DNA from: Pseudooceanicola onchidii
GTDB lineage: Bacteria; Pseudomonadota; Alphaproteobacteria; Rhodobacterales; Rhodobacteraceae
NCBI RefSeq assembly: GCF_004959925.1
Contig: NZ_SPUW01000001.1
Span: 744,001-808,000 of the forward strand
Direction of reading: 5' to 3'
DNA: 64,000 nt
Part shown: piece by piece, positions 6,210 through 28,553 of the stretch
How positions within the stretch are numbered: position 1 is the stretch's first letter
Layout of the letters: each line of letters begins with the position of its first letter
Program-made: the position numbers and the translations under genes
Notes under the pieces: model-generated
Database searches by the model: none
The model's input: the letters and a program-made list of their open reading frames with translations, nothing else
What the model was told of the DNA's origin: nothing

Positions 6210-6671
6210 TCAGGCCTCCTGCAGCTTTTGCGCGGCGTCGTGGATCGCGGCGCGGATCCGGGGGTAGGTGCCACAGCGGCAGAGGTTGCCCTGCATCGCC
6301 TCGTCGATATCGGCGTCGGTCGGGTTGGGCACCTCGGCCAGCAGCGCGGCGGCCTGCATGATCTGGCCCGACTGGCAGTAGCCGCATTGCGCCACCTGGT
6401 GATCGACCCAGGCCTGCTGCAGCACGGCAGGCGCATCGGGCGTGCCCAGCCCCTCGATCGTGGTCACCTCGCCCCAGACATCGCCGATGGCGACCTGGCA
6501 GGACCGCACGGCCTCTCCGTCGATATGCACGGTGCAGGCGCCGCAGGCGGCCACCCCGCAGCCGAACTTGGTGCCGGTCATGTTCAGCCCGTCACGCAGC
6601 GCCCACAGCAGGGGCACCTCGTCGGGCAGGTCTACGGTCTGGGCGGTGCCGTTGATGGTCAGTCTGGCCAT
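6210..6671 (-). CDS. iorA: Molybdenum hydroxylase (2Fe-2S) small subunit, isoquinoline 1-oxidoreductase alpha-type
   Basis: A 153-residue iron-sulfur subunit that passes electrons from the molybdenum subunit. The plant-ferredoxin-type motif [13 protein letters not shown] in the first half and [10 protein letters not shown] ... NLCRCGTY in the second half supply the two [2Fe-2S] clusters, as in all IorA/CoxS proteins. It is first in the iorAB operon and is divergent from a TetR regulator, across a region rich in TGTCA half-sites. It has no signal sequence and would travel with the Tat-marked large subunit. Confidence 0.9.
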
Positions 6672-6721
6672 GGAATCACTCCTGCTGAACTTTCTGACAA
6701 AATGCGGCTAAAGTGTCATTG

Positions 6722-25305: not shown

Positions 25306-25316
25306 TTTGAACCGGG

Positions 25317-25340
25317 AGAGGGGGCTGTCTGCCCCCTCTT
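25317..25340 (+). terminator. Terminator after the OppDF-M20 operon
   Basis: A 9-bp perfect stem AGAGGGGGC / GCCCCCTCT with loop TGTCT is followed by TTGTCC, 11 bases after the stop codon of the second amidohydrolase. Confidence 0.6.
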
Positions 25341-25366
25341 GTCCCTGCGGGCCAATTCACCCCCGA

Positions 25367-25376
25367 GGATATTTGC
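25367..25376. repeat. Target-site duplication, left
   Basis: GGATATTTGC directly precedes the left terminal inverted repeat and recurs directly after the right one. Confidence 0.8.
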
Positions 25377-25400
25377 GGCCTTATGTATCAAACGCACCAA
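25377..25400 (+). repeat. Left terminal inverted repeat
   Basis: 24 bases starting GGCCTTATGTATC and ending CGCACCAA, perfectly complementary to the right end of the element. Confidence 0.88.
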
Positions 25401-25475
25401 GCGGTGCGCGGCTAGATGAAATGACTCCACTTAGCGTCTGAAGTCGCCTACCTCTTGTTTTAACAGGAGGTCTAC

Positions 25476-26351
25476 ATGTCAGAAACGCCGCTGGTCTTAT
25501 TTATTGATCTGAAGCCAGACACACGCATTGATCTAAAAACGGCGGCTCGTGCCGCGATAGCCTGGGCCGATACGGTCGAGAGTGTTGGAGCGTTCTTCGA
25601 TCCAGCACACCCGCCCACAATTGATCTTGTTGCATCTGAACCCGGAAGCCAAAAGCTGCGGGGTATCATCAAGTCGATTACGGACGATCCGCAGGCGCTT
25701 ATACGAACAGCGATAGTTTCTTCGATCATCTACATTGTAGATACCGGCGGACGCTGGGGGCTTGAGCAAGTTCTTGAATACATGAAAGGGCCAGACGCAC
25801 CGCAGGAAGTTGTTTCTCTATCTGAGGAGGAGCGTACTCAAATCGCCAAGGATGTTGCGGCCGCGCTAGAAGCGCGCCTTGGCGAAGCTCCTGCTAGGAG
25901 GGTGTTTGCTGAGCTTTCCAATGATGATGACGTGACCGGCGTGGGGGTCACTTCTCGAACCGATGGTAATAGGCCTTCCATCGTCGTCAGCAGAGGAGAG
26001 TTTCCGCCGGAGGTGTTCATCATCGACCATGAGGGAACCGAAAAGCGCACGCGGGTAGAGGAGGTTGATCTGGTTCTGTTTCGGCCAGTCTTAACTACCG
26101 AAACTGACAAAAGGTGGGGGTTCACATGGCCGTATGGAAAGATAGGGGCCACCATAAAAGACCATGAGTTCTTAACCAACATGGCCGAAGGGAAGCTTGG
26201 AATTGAGATGGCGCAGGGGATTGTGTTGACGGTTCTGCTCGAAATTTCCGAAGAACGCAGAGAGAGCGTTTGGTCGGTCAAAGAATATTCTGTTCAAAAG
26301 GTTGTCAAAATTCGCCCTCACGAAAAACAGGAGCGGATGGATTTACAGTGA
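25476..26351 (+). CDS. Orphan passenger protein of the IS1595-type element, 291 aa
   Basis: I do not recognise a named family. The start follows a strong AGGAGG. The N-terminal 100 residues look like a mixed alpha/beta unit (PLVLFIDLKPDTRIDLKTAA) ending in a hydrophobic helix (about 75-88, LIRTAIVSSIIYIV). An acidic alpha-helical linker follows. The C-terminal 120 residues look like a beta-rich domain (FRPVLTTETDKRWGFTWPYG ... LGIEMAQGIVLTVLLEI). The base composition is well below the host level. It is convergent with, and overlaps by 9 bases, the small membrane-protein gene. A role in defence, addiction or host modification is possible but only inferred from its place as element cargo. Confidence 0.65.
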   Translation: MSETPLVLFIDLKPDTRIDLKTAARAAIAWADTVESVGAFFDPAHPPTIDLVASEPGSQKLRGIIKSITDDPQALIRTAIVSSIIYIVDTGGRWGLEQVLEYMKGPDAPQEVVSLSEEERTQIAKDVAAALEARLGEAPARRVFAELSNDDDVTGVGVTSRTDGNRPSIVVSRGEFPPEVFIIDHEGTEKRTRVEEVDLVLFRPVLTTETDKRWGFTWPYGKIGATIKDHEFLTNMAEGKLGIEMAQGIVLTVLLEISEERRESVWSVKEYSVQKVVKIRPHEKQERMDLQ

Positions 26352-26522
26352 GGTCAGCAAGATGATGCCGAAAACCACGATGGCTAAGGCGGTCAAGATT
26401 GCCGCAACAGTACTGAGCGTTTGAACCGCAAGCAAAACACCGAAAACCGCAGCAGCCACCACGGTCGGCGCGATCCATTTTCGCACCTTAATCCATTGTT
26501 TTTGCTCTGTTTCCTTGATCAT
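26343..26522 (-). CDS. 59-aa two-helix membrane peptide coupled to DUF6471 gene
   Basis: A small gene reading MIKETEQKQWIKVRKWIAPT followed by two hydrophobic stretches (about residues 18-34 and 38-58) with a short turn, ending LLTSL. The N-terminus is charged and aromatic. Its ATG overlaps the stop codon of the DUF6471 gene in ATGA, a classic sign of translational coupling. The 3' end overlaps the convergent 291-aa gene by 9 bases. It resembles small holin-, toxin- or immunity-like membrane peptides in build only; no family is recognised. Confidence 0.6.
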   Translation of the reverse strand: MIKETEQKQWIKVRKWIAPTVVAAAVFGVLLAVQTLSTVAAILTALAIVVFGIILLTSL

Positions 26523-26731
26523 TCCAAAATCTCAACTCTCTGCACTTTTATAGCAGAAAGGGACTGCAATAGGAACGCCGCAGTGAACTTCCCTCGTGAC
26601 AATTTGTTTCGAATGTTCACCTCTTTGTCTCCAATCAGATCGGCAAGCTGCGCATAGGTCACGCCTTTACGCTTCAGCTCCGCTTTCAGGAGGTTCGCGG
26701 CCATCGTTTCCCATTCTGTTTGCTGCGCCAT
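26519..26731 (-). CDS. DUF6471 helix-turn-helix-like protein
   Basis: A 70-residue protein (TEWETMAANLLKAELKRKGV, then YAQLADLIGDKEVNIRNKLS) with an XRE-like helix-turn-helix pattern that fits the DUF6471 family. Members are small and often carried by mobile DNA. It could bind the dyads in the promoter region between itself and the transposase gene (AAGATA-AACG-TATCTT lies 13 bases upstream of its start), hence be an autoregulator or antitoxin-like partner for the coupled membrane peptide. The regulatory role is inferred. Confidence 0.75.
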   Translation of the reverse strand: MAQQTEWETMAANLLKAELKRKGVTYAQLADLIGDKEVNIRNKLSRGKFTAAFLLQSLSAIKVQRVEILE

Positions 26732-26743
26732 GCGTCACCTTTC

Positions 26744-26759
26744 AAGATAAACGTATCTT
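26744..26759. promoter_or_regulatory. Dyad in the passenger/transposase divergent promoter
   Basis: AAGATA-AACG-TATCTT is a perfect 6+6 inverted repeat just upstream of the DUF6471 start. It overlaps a second one, GTATC-TTTTTT-GATAC. It is a likely operator for a small helix-turn-helix protein. Confidence 0.45.
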
Positions 26760-26806
26760 TTTTGATACCTATGCCCTTGCAAGGGATGCGTCAACGTACC
26801 ATATCT

Positions 26807-26820
26807 GTTACATAGGTAAC
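26807..26820. promoter_or_regulatory. Dyad upstream of the transposase gene
   Basis: GTTAC-ATAG-GTAAC is a perfect 5+5 inverted repeat ending 12 bases before the transposase ATG. It may serve as an operator that limits transposase expression. Confidence 0.4.
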
Positions 26821-26832
26821 GGAAACGATACG

Positions 26833-27795
26833 ATGGCCCAACACTTTCTCCTCTCCGCAGCGTCCCGCACCCTCTCCCTGCGTTCGATCTACAAAGCAGG
26901 CGAGGAAGCAGCTTACGAAACCTTCTGCAAGATGCGCTGGCCCGAGACGGATGGCGAGGCGGTTTGCCCGCGCTGCGGACATGACGAAACCTATTCGATC
27001 AGCACCCGCCGCAAGTTTAAGTGCAAGGCTTGCGCTCACCAGTTTTCGGTTACGTCCGGCACCATCTTTGATTCCCGCAAGATGGCCTTCGTGGACCTGC
27101 TGGCCGCGATCTGCATCATCGTGAACGCATCCAAGGGCGTTTCCATGGTGCAGCTTTCCCGCGACCTGGATTGCCAGTACAAGACCGCCTTTGTACTGGC
27201 CCACAAGCTGCGCGAAGCGATGGCCCTTGAGGTTCAGACTGGCGAAGTGCTGAACGGTCATGTTGAAGTTGATGGCGCGTATTTTGGCGGTCACGTCCGC
27301 CCGGAGAACCGCAAGGAAGACCGGAAGGACCGCCGCCTGAAAGAGAACCAGACCGGCAAGCGCCGCGTGGTTGTGGTCCTGCGTGAGCGTGATGGCCGCA
27401 CTCTGCCGTTTGTTGCCAAGCAGGAAGCGGAAGGCGTGGAACTGGCGAAAGAGAACGTCAGCCGCTCCGCTACCCTGACCGCCGACGAAGCGTCCCATTG
27501 GGATTTGCTCCACGCTGGCTGGTCCGTGGATCGCGTGAACCACTCGCAGGTGTACAGCGATCACGGCAAGCACACCAATATGGCGGAAAACTACTTCTCC
27601 CGCCTGCGCCGCATGGTTGTCGGCCAGCATCACCACGTTTCGCCGCAGTACCTCTACCAGTACGCAAACCACGCCGCATGGCTGGAAGACAACCGCCGCA
27701 CTGACAACGGGACGCTGGCACACATCATGGTTTCGAACGCGATGGACGCGCCGGTTAGCAGGAACTGGAAGGGGTACTGGCAGCGGGCGGCGTGA
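26833..27795 (+). CDS. IS1595 family transposase (ISXO2-like domain)
   Basis: A 320-residue transposase. An N-terminal zinc ribbon (CPRCGHDETYSI ... FKCKACAHQFSVTSGTIF) precedes an ISXO2-type DDE/N catalytic domain with EVDGAYFGG (first Asp), TLTADEASHWD (second Asp) and HTNMAENYFSRLRRM (third residue region). All three acidic/Asn regions are present and no frameshift is seen, so the enzyme looks intact. The start MAQHFLLS is preceded by GGAAACG. Its codon use is closer to the host than that of the passengers. Confidence 0.93.
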   Translation: MAQHFLLSAASRTLSLRSIYKAGEEAAYETFCKMRWPETDGEAVCPRCGHDETYSISTRRKFKCKACAHQFSVTSGTIFDSRKMAFVDLLAAICIIVNASKGVSMVQLSRDLDCQYKTAFVLAHKLREAMALEVQTGEVLNGHVEVDGAYFGGHVRPENRKEDRKDRRLKENQTGKRRVVVVLRERDGRTLPFVAKQEAEGVELAKENVSRSATLTADEASHWDLLHAGWSVDRVNHSQVYSDHGKHTNMAENYFSRLRRMVVGQHHHVSPQYLYQYANHAAWLEDNRRTDNGTLAHIMVSNAMDAPVSRNWKGYWQRAA

Positions 27796-27873
27796 CATAT
27801 TTTGTGTATTGGGGTTGACCAACCCACGACCTGAGGTATTCGCCATGGACTCAGGCAGAACGAATCAAGTATA

Positions 27874-27910
27874 TTCATCCGTGGGGCTGCAATGGGACCC
27901 CACGGATGAA
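27874..27910. repeat. Strong 13-bp inverted repeat downstream of the transposase gene
   Basis: TTCATCCGTGGGG and CCCCACGGATGAA form a perfect 13-bp stem around an 11-base loop. It could end transposase transcription or form a structured RNA, although no U tract follows. A possible 23-codon frame (27,845-27,916) runs through it. A second small hairpin TTGACGG-AAG-CCGTCAA lies at 27,966-27,982. Confidence 0.6.
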
Positions 27911-28015
27911 ACTTGAGCCGTGCGACCGGCCAGTCTTGTCAGTGAACACGACAAGAATCCCATTTTTGACGGAAGCCGTCAAGCCTGTCGCCGCCTCTGA
28001 CCTAAGAGGTGCGCC

Positions 28016-28123
28016 ATGGGACTTTCCCTTGGTCTCGGACTTGGGCTTGGAATGAATCAACCGGTTCCGACCGTTGATGAAAAGGACAAGCCCAAGAAGC
28101 CGAAGAAGGAAAAGGACAAGTAA
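28016..28123 (+). CDS. Small glycine/leucine-lysine ORF in mobile element, 35 aa
   Basis: MGLSLGLGLGLGMNQPVPTV followed by a lysine- and aspartate-rich tail, with AGAGG 6 bases upstream of the ATG. The Gly-Leu repeat plus basic tail is odd. It may be a real micro-protein of the element or chance. No homologue is known to me. Confidence 0.3.
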   Translation: MGLSLGLGLGLGMNQPVPTVDEKDKPKKPKKEKDK

Positions 28124-28140
28124 CGCTTGTCTGGCTGGCC

Positions 28141-28476
28141 CTACGGGGTCAGCCTCCACACCGGCCCACCCTCAATCTTTCCCCTAAGCTTCGACAAAGC
28201 CCCATCCACTCGCCAATAAAGCCGATCCGTGGGCACGTCAGGTCGAAGCGCCCCAATATATTCGACAAGCTGCGCACGGGTCTTGGGGCCATCCCTGAGC
28301 GCATCCAGCACCATCCGCCCCATCTCTCCGCGTCGGGCTGTGGCAATTAACACACGGGGCATATCCACGCCGCGCATGGCCAGCAGCGCCTCCACATGGT
28401 CCAGACCGTCGCCACCTTCCCGGATGATCTGCTTTCGGAGCGCCAGCAGCGCGTTATTGATCGTCTTGTCCTGCAT
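28141..28476 (-). CDS. Winged-helix-like passenger protein, 111 aa
   Basis: The protein has a helical N-terminus (NALLALRKQIIREGGDG), a basic middle and a C-terminal half (MVLDALRDGPKTRAQLVEYI ... VDGALSKLRGKIEGGPVWRL) that reads like a winged helix-turn-helix. It lies just inside the right end of the IS1595-type element, convergent with the transposase. It could be a DNA-binding regulator or transposition accessory; the family is not recognised. Confidence 0.6.
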   Translation of the reverse strand: MQDKTINNALLALRKQIIREGGDGLDHVEALLAMRGVDMPRVLIATARRGEMGRMVLDALRDGPKTRAQLVEYIGALRPDVPTDRLYWRVDGALSKLRGKIEGGPVWRLTP

Positions 28477-28519
28477 GGGGGCAGGGTAGCAATTTCAGCG
28501 CGTCAGGGATTCACAGAAG

Positions 28520-28543
28520 TTGGTGCGTTTGATACATAAGGCC
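28520..28543 (-). repeat. Right terminal inverted repeat
   Basis: The exact 24-base reverse complement of the left end, ending CATAAGGCC. Confidence 0.88.
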
Positions 28544-28553
28544 GGATATTTGC
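28544..28553. repeat. Target-site duplication, right
   Basis: GGATATTTGC follows the right inverted repeat. The sequence then continues AGCAAAAAGAAG, restoring the end of the interrupted intergenic repeat. Confidence 0.8.

Follow-up and report, generated by a model that had tools for sequence, protein, structure and literature searches.

A complete IS1595-type element and its relatives

The genomic stretch examined here (hereafter the window) comprises 64,000 nucleotides of Pseudooceanicola onchidii (Rhodobacteraceae; NCBI RefSeq assembly GCF_004959925.1, contig NZ_SPUW01000001.1, positions 744,001 to 808,000) and contains a 3169-bp insertion element of the IS1595 type at 25376-28544, with ends placed by comparison with relatives and six predicted proteins between them (Table 1). 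The element is a complete IS1595-type unit, as had been proposed from the letters alone in an earlier annotation (the sequence-only reading) and is confirmed by its ends, its target duplication, its transposase domain and the relatives that share the same ends. Perfect 24-bp inverted ends (25377-25400 and 28520-28543) flanked by a 10-bp direct repeat had been described at that point, and both are present, but the comparison of 83 elements with flanking sequence (window included, as in all flank-based counts) requires different values. Just outside the 24-bp repeats, 82/83 elements have C next to the left end and G next to the right end, after which an exact 8-bp duplication follows in 74/83 (at least 7 of 8 bases in 76/83), so the ends are shifted outward by one base to 25 bp; the 10-bp repeat consists of an 8-bp duplication, GATATTTG, the length that characterises the IS1595 family, plus two more matching bases.

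The guanine-cytosine (GC) content of the interior is lower than that of the surrounding DNA, again in agreement with the earlier annotation, which had also called the transposase intact and of the ISXO2 type. This 320-residue protein matches DDE_Tnp_IS1595 (PF12762, E 5.8e-37) and NF033547 (143 bits, cut-off 75), its putative catalytic D-D-E columns (D147, D218 and E252) are invariant in 84/84 aligned transposases (two with stop codons left out), and the four cysteine columns of its zinc ribbon (PF12760, E 1.2e-15) are kept in 83-84 of the 84. There was no resolvase match among the six element proteins scanned, and the transposase is of the IS1595 and not of the Tn3 type.

The element is present as one copy in its own genome and is probably mobile. 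Six of 21 congeneric genomes (L153, L155, L156, L163, L164 and L167) have the empty site that the sequence-only reading had suggested looking for in close relatives, with both neighbour genes matching at length and adjoining without the element; the other 15 are uninformative because, within a flank of about 1.5 kb, eight had short right-hand matches only and seven had no match. Elements with these ends are found at different loci in numerous species, which bears out the view of one mobile unit with passengers. No relative of the whole element was found in phage records, and 11 plasmid records matched it over at most 28% of its length. Rfam returned nothing for the window at the gathering threshold and nothing for the element at E ≤ 1, no tRNA was found in the window, and a scan for sigma-70 promoters and terminators gave a result near chance level.

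Transposase matches at E ≤ 1e-40 occur in 26 of 394 family genomes (own genome included), 20 transposase relatives are held in viral contigs, and one-per-species genomes yielded 212 transposase loci, the best 80 of which were kept. Both ends were recognisable at 105 of 130 transposase loci, with one or both missing at 25, several of them at contig ends. The resulting 97 elements (window included) reduced to 86 distinct elements of 2.3-4.6 kb once 11 exact copies had been dropped. This set excludes loci without a recognisable end and 15 minus-strand loci, the latter amounting to three further distinct elements (L020, L036 and L039, each with a DUF6471 and a winged-helix gene) and otherwise to exact copies or loci with an end missing.

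Table 1. Features of the window element (window coordinates) and tRNA-like cargo of relatives (locus coordinates)
Feature	Position	Strand	Basis
Landing site, copy of dispersed intergenic sequence	25313..25376	+	many matches in own and congeneric genomes
Left target duplication copy, 8 bp, GATATTTG	25368..25375	.	exact in 74/83 elements, same end definition
Left terminal inverted repeat, 25 bp	25376..25400	+	perfect repeat and 83-element comparison
291-aa LAPAL-family / PDC-S42-like protein, socket A cargo	25476..26351	+	NF053583, PDC-S42, homologues in elements
59-aa membrane peptide, socket A cargo	26343..26522	-	start overlaps DUF6471 stop (offset -1); hydrophobicity
DUF6471 Cro-like helix-turn-helix protein, 70 aa, core, divergent from transposase	26519..26731	-	PF20075
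IS1595/ISXO2-type DDE transposase, 320 aa, N-terminal zinc ribbon, core	26833..27795	+	PF12762, PF12760, NF033547
Strongly folded stretch, socket B cargo, candidate RNA or leader	27796..28015	+ (strand not established)	folding z; perfect 13-bp hairpin 27874-27910
35-aa micro-ORF, socket B cargo	28016..28123	+	relatives in socket B of L034, L110
Winged-helix DNA-binding protein (predicted), 111 aa, core	28141..28476	-	found in 84/86 elements
Right terminal inverted repeat, 25 bp	28520..28544	-	perfect repeat and 83-element comparison
Right target duplication copy, 8 bp, GATATTTG	28545..28552	.	pairs with left copy
tRNA-like cargo, socket B of relatives	L026:2567-2639; L068:6058-6130; L083:6062-6135; L077:6069-6145, 6614-6701

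A constant core and two cargo sockets

The five frames other than the transposase had been taken for one passenger set, within which DUF6471 and the membrane peptide formed a pair, and neither grouping survived the comparison of elements. The DUF6471 gene is present in 82/86 elements, on the minus strand ahead of the transposase, and the winged-helix gene in 84/86, on the minus strand ahead of the right end (L134 is an exception, with its best match on the other side, and in four of the 84 carriers only a 62-72-aa frame was picked). These two proteins are part of the core of the element and not passengers; the three other frames are exchangeable, and the membrane peptide accompanies the 291-aa protein. 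The joint search of ends and proteins that had been suggested did find relatives of all five frames in other elements, but the set is not kept together. The DUF6471 assignment scores 81 bits against a curated cut-off of 26.8 (PF20075). Across 289 genomes of the class, 22 loci with DUF6471 were found, that of the window among them, and 12 adjoin such a transposase; the ten that do not comprise four with stop codons, four that are incomplete or close to contig ends, and two (L210 and L220) to which neither applies. The AlphaFold2 model of the 111-aa protein has a mean predicted local distance difference test (pLDDT) of 88.4 and gave no match at E ≤ 0.001 in a structure search, with PadR, Fur/Zur and LmrR-type folds at the top of the weak match list, and sequence searches likewise gave weak matches to PadR and other winged helices.

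The remaining sequence falls into two intervals, here termed sockets. Socket A, measured from the left end, extends to DUF6471 (median 900 bp); socket B runs from the transposase to the winged-helix gene (median 837 bp; <50 bp in L028 and L125). In 75 near relatives base conservation ends about 26 bases into the left end and at the stops of the DUF6471, transposase and winged-helix genes, where it falls to zero.

Cargo sharing was scored by protein comparison (E < 1e-8) over the 3655 pairs of the 86 elements. Socket A cargo is common to 103 pairs (99 when one BLAST direction alone is used) and socket B cargo to 46, and a single pair (L112/L117) has the cargo of both sockets in common, compared with 1.3 expected if the two are independent. 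Cargo turnover in one socket is independent of that in the other. It is visible even between close relatives, as seven pairs whose transposase genes are 90-96% identical as DNA lack DNA similarity in both sockets; at the protein level six of them share neither socket's cargo, and the seventh, L056/L057, has a B protein in common (48%). Homologous cargo was found in opposite sockets in 14 pairs, representing about three protein families.

Recombination in the common core is the simplest and most likely route of arm exchange, a view that draws on this independence and on mosaic identity along the elements. In several pairs (e.g., L021/L053 and L062/L110, the latter two from one assembled metagenome genome), identity in 75-base bins, with gaps scored as mismatches, is 84-100% in the transposase, drops to 39-84% in DUF6471 and to 29-67% over most of the winged-helix gene, and climbs again at the right end. 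Pairs sharing A cargo have a median DUF6471 identity of 73.5 versus 66.2 for other pairs, and a median transposase identity of 82.5 versus 81.2, comparisons whose p-values are a rough guide only because the pairs are not independent.

An ordinary passenger-carrying ‘transporter IS’ (insertion sequence), in which host DNA is picked up at random and lost again without having a selected role, would account for the lower GC content of the cargo (A 0.513, B 0.498, against 0.597 for the transposase, in 84 elements), for families that are mostly unknown and for the precedent that IS1595 elements with passengers are already on record (PMC11891212). Such drift is difficult to reconcile with the retention of long frames, at least 150 aa in socket A of 76/86 elements and at least 100 aa in socket B of 64/86, or with the recurrence of cargo, which is common to at least one other element for 55/86 elements in A and 45/86 in B and includes recurrent defence and toxin-antitoxin families. 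Chance capture alone is thus regarded as improbable, and the preferred reading remains that of cargo kept for a benefit.

Cargo carried by related elements

Socket open reading frames (ORFs) were picked mechanically, by length, with a minimum of at least 60 aa in socket B. Among 125 socket B ORFs, the BstA model was matched by six (best E 3.1e-122), SocA/Panacea by eight, KilA-N, M78 peptidase (M78/CapP type) and NYN (NYN/HEC-09 type) by three each, HicA by two, HicB-like, RelE and PemK by one each, and MqsA-type by one (Pfam) or three (NCBIfam). Individual examples include HEC-09 in L112 (E 5.8e-48), Panacea in L035 and BstA (E 3.5e-123) in L050, a right half-element that lies outside the set of 86. 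For 106 socket A ORFs, M78 was found in four, seven further Pfam families in one or two each, the CapP model in four and RmrA models in up to six. BstA and CapP are parts of anti-phage systems. There are also tRNA-like genes in socket B of L026, L068, L083, L077 (twice) and L133 and on the left side of L134. One of the socket B genes has the anticodon TTA and is a stop-codon tRNA according to ARAGORN.

The roles in defence, addiction and regulation suggested by the sequence-only reading would be consistent with the annotations of part of this cargo. For most socket A ORFs a role in defence or addiction is unsupported because they match no Pfam family, the eight families seen each occurring in 1-4 of 106 ORFs. 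A single superfamily encompassing all socket A proteins was considered and rejected, having no alignment support (mean column identity 6%). Separately, L065, L097, L112 and L120 carry a linked group of socket A proteins whose orientation is opposite between elements, and the 486-aa frame in socket A of L081 (L081:2841-4298) is probably an IS5-type transposase, matched by one A ORF, that represents a later insertion.

It could be that the cargo serves the element itself, with addiction modules in both sockets punishing the loss of the insertion. Consistent with this are the Panacea antitoxins (8/125) and the HicA (2), RelE (1), PemK (1) and MqsA-type (1-3) proteins of socket B, the membrane peptide and micropeptide of the window element (see below), and the toxin-antitoxin pairs that Tn3-family elements carry within the transposition module, as described in PMC7157771. 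The BstA-type and HEC-09-type relatives and the tRNA-like genes are no obvious addiction modules, and as an account of both sockets this explanation seems unlikely, though not strikingly so.

Cargo of the window element

The 291-aa protein of socket A belongs to LAPAL_fam (NF053583, 68.4 bits against a cut-off of 60) and matches the PDC-S42 profile over residues 16-289 (E 4.7e-10, from a library without a cut-off), which PADLOC lists as a candidate defence system. Homologues are found in socket A of L060 (39%) and in an element half in L184/L198 (53%). In all three carriers (window, L060 and L184/L198) the protein is accompanied by a membrane peptide of 59-60 aa directly after DUF6471, and among the 82 elements with DUF6471 a frame above the hydrophobicity threshold follows that gene only in the window element and L060, with L100 at the threshold (1.60); L198 provides the third case. 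The LAPAL protein and the membrane peptide most likely constitute a candidate defence pair, abortive-infection-like or toxin-like, judging from profile matches and their constant association. No toxin-antitoxin family matched the LAPAL protein, the membrane peptide or the micro-ORF at E ≤ 0.001. The 291-aa protein also gave matches to DrmD, which were short (39 residues, E 1e-4) and were set aside.

A different origin for the LAPAL protein would be a phage structural gene captured without use to element or host. NCBIfam names the family a ‘putative phage structural protein’, and a search of viral proteins with the AlphaFold2 model (pLDDT 82.6; predicted template modelling score 0.58) gave three matches at E ≤ 0.001, led by one from Myoviridae sp. 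ctLIM9 (E 1.6e-6) and all of them to uncharacterised proteins of phages. There was no PDB match and no solved relative at E ≤ 0.001 in the model structure search. The family is present in 14 of 295 family genomes, and 14 of 16 LAPAL loci show no such element end in the fetched flanks. There was no confirmed case of the protein in viral contigs. Set against capture of a useless gene are the PDC-S42 match and the occurrence of an intact gene in three elements, each with its membrane peptide, such that we give this origin little credence and retain the candidate defence pair, to which the family name and the element-free loci are nevertheless unfavourable.

The socket B cargo of the window element is a candidate micropeptide with a structured leader or RNA. 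The 345 nt at 27796-28140 fold at z -7.26, and folding centred on 27852-28001 is about equal on both strands (z -5.65; other strand -6.66). The micro-ORF has a Gly-Leu-rich start and a Lys-rich end, and its ribosome site AGAGGTG could pair with CCTCT just upstream. Its relatives, in L034 (63%) and L110 (39%), both lie in socket B. As DNA, the folded stretch is matched within the 86 elements by L034, weakly by L110 and by no others. Eleven weak matches besides its own in 394 family genomes were rejected as relatives because ten fall within query positions 285-325, the Lys-codon part, and one (165-196) lies in unrelated sequence. Plasmid records gave two 24-25-bp matches to the folded stretch and none to the micropeptide, and a profile of the three micropeptides, searched against 295 family genomes, found nothing beyond two genomes whose peptides had gone into it, that of the window and one other. 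A type I-like toxin-antitoxin system in socket B is possible.

There is close to an even chance that, instead of being an RNA gene, the folded stretch acts only as a transcription stop or is a leftover between the two convergent genes. Perfect hairpins of at least 9 bp (9-14 bp) occur within 150 nt of the transposase stop in 13/84 elements (two with socket B <150 nt left out) versus 0.25 expected, with sequences mostly unrelated between elements, and both strands fold about equally. Further, strong folding is not special to the B cargo of the window because 14/84 elements reach z ≤ -5 somewhere in socket B, and the best 150-nt folding is weak in L034 (z -1.6), unlike that in the window element (-6.0) and L110 (-5.45). 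The folding of the entire 345 nt and the micro-ORF kept in three elements are less readily explained by a stop or remnant and favour the candidate micropeptide module.

A proposed mobile chassis for exchangeable cargo

Taken together, the element family is probably a mobile chassis with a fixed core and two independently exchanged cargo sockets, the cargo being kept for its benefit. The proposed core would consist of the 25-bp ends, the IS1595-type DDE transposase, the divergent Cro-like repressor DUF6471 and the winged-helix regulator by the right end, and the two regulators most likely control the transposase and perhaps cargo expression, as suggested by their fold and position. Cargo would occupy the interval from the left end to the stop of DUF6471 (A) and the one bounded by the stops of the convergent transposase and winged-helix genes (B), and would thereby leave every core gene unbroken. 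Crossovers between two elements within the common core would most likely swap the arms, uncoupling cargo turnover from both the transposase and the opposite socket. Retention would follow from benefit to the host or the element, with small modules for immunity or addiction as a frequent form, as the homology of part of the cargo suggests; in the window copy this would most likely be an abortive-infection-like or toxin-like pair in A and an RNA/micropeptide module in B.

A number of observations weigh against this reading. High DUF6471 identity is retained in L056/L057 and L124/L125, which are not mosaic there, and winged-helix identity is unlinked to either A or B cargo. The relatives represent the best-matching part of the one-per-species loci, the socket ORFs were chosen by length and most of those in socket A are without a Pfam match.

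A more far-reaching proposal, which we hold tentatively and consider somewhat less likely than its alternatives, is that the family represents an undescribed class of very small transposons acting as an integrase-free two-socket cassette exchanger. Core recombination would trade the arms and reshuffle small immunity, addiction and RNA genes among alphaproteobacteria, with the elements parked in dispersed harmless sequence; the window copy would then hold a new RNA-micropeptide module (perhaps type I-like toxin-antitoxin) and a new LAPAL/membrane-peptide defence pair.

Several known systems bear a likeness to this arrangement. Integrons also hold small exchangeable cargo in a fixed platform; the present elements differ in that exchange resembles recombination in a common core and in that no integrase match was found among the six element proteins scanned (attC sites were not looked for). 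Phage-satellite and Tn7-like defence hotspots likewise combine a conserved mobile chassis with immune cargo that varies, compared with which the element described here is 3 kb, has a single DDE transposase and shows no guide or helper system. Within the IS1595 family, the ISNwi1 and ISNha5 groups are long and passenger-carrying. Passengers of the family, including ISNha5 with transcription regulators, are in print, and these ‘transporter IS’ share with the present elements a zinc-ribbon transposase, an 8-bp duplication and genes not involved in transposition (PMC11891212, PMC8101967). Relative to ISNwi1 and ISNha5, the distinguishing features would be the two constant regulators and the two independent sockets. 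Tn3-family transposons with toxin-antitoxin genes (PMC7157771) resemble the present elements in having small addiction-type cargo at a fixed place and exchange between transposons, and differ in their own type of transposase, a resolvase, a res site and one usual cargo place as opposed to two.

Full-text literature searches found no description of the two-socket layout and no use of the term DUF6471 in 5.39 million papers, and passages of PMC12561309, PMC7371123, PMC9296519 and PMC3942029 contained nothing on such a layout; part of the chassis may already be known. If the reading holds, each copy would be a trap for small immune and addiction genes, and the ends and two constant regulators would make the sockets, in which most socket A proteins have no Pfam match, easy to find by computer. 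It would also demonstrate integrase-free cargo turnover in a 3-kb element and make the purpose of insertion-sequence passenger genes directly testable.

Landing sites

A favoured landing place of the element family is a dispersed intergenic sequence (approximately CnCCnnCGGGGATATTTnnGGnCAnAAGAAG). The insertion sites of 28/83 elements, window included, form one sequence cluster, in orientations 16 and 12, with a consensus of approximately CnCCnnCGGG-GATATTTn-nGGnCAnAAGAAG. The genome of the window has nine places within one mismatch of CCCCCGAGGATATTT, the window site among them, and a reversed control has none; longer patterns of the landing site gave 2 and 0 matches. From the observed ends, duplications and recurrent sites, we infer that the transposase inserts the unit at AT-rich targets of 8 bp, in many cases within this dispersed sequence, and that such landings would be harmless. 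Harmless landing may not hold for all sites because 61/83 junctions fall, in one or another of the six reading frames, within a stretch that stays open for at least 120 codons, an observation that speaks against the proposal and is weak evidence in GC-rich DNA.

Seven further sites (L051, L060, L073, L077, L080, L112 and L117) lie in one other sequence, with the duplication CAGATCTG or near it, a shared target that by eye is a candidate HNH-type gene-like sequence, and there are smaller groups of 2-3 insertion sites that share sequence. L048 and L082 have the same motif of one gene as their insertion target, LFLDELPEF, which we take to resemble comM/yifB. L096, L118, L123 and L124 have a common target frame (PLGGT..VGAWD..NVT), presumably resembling a glycosyltransferase.

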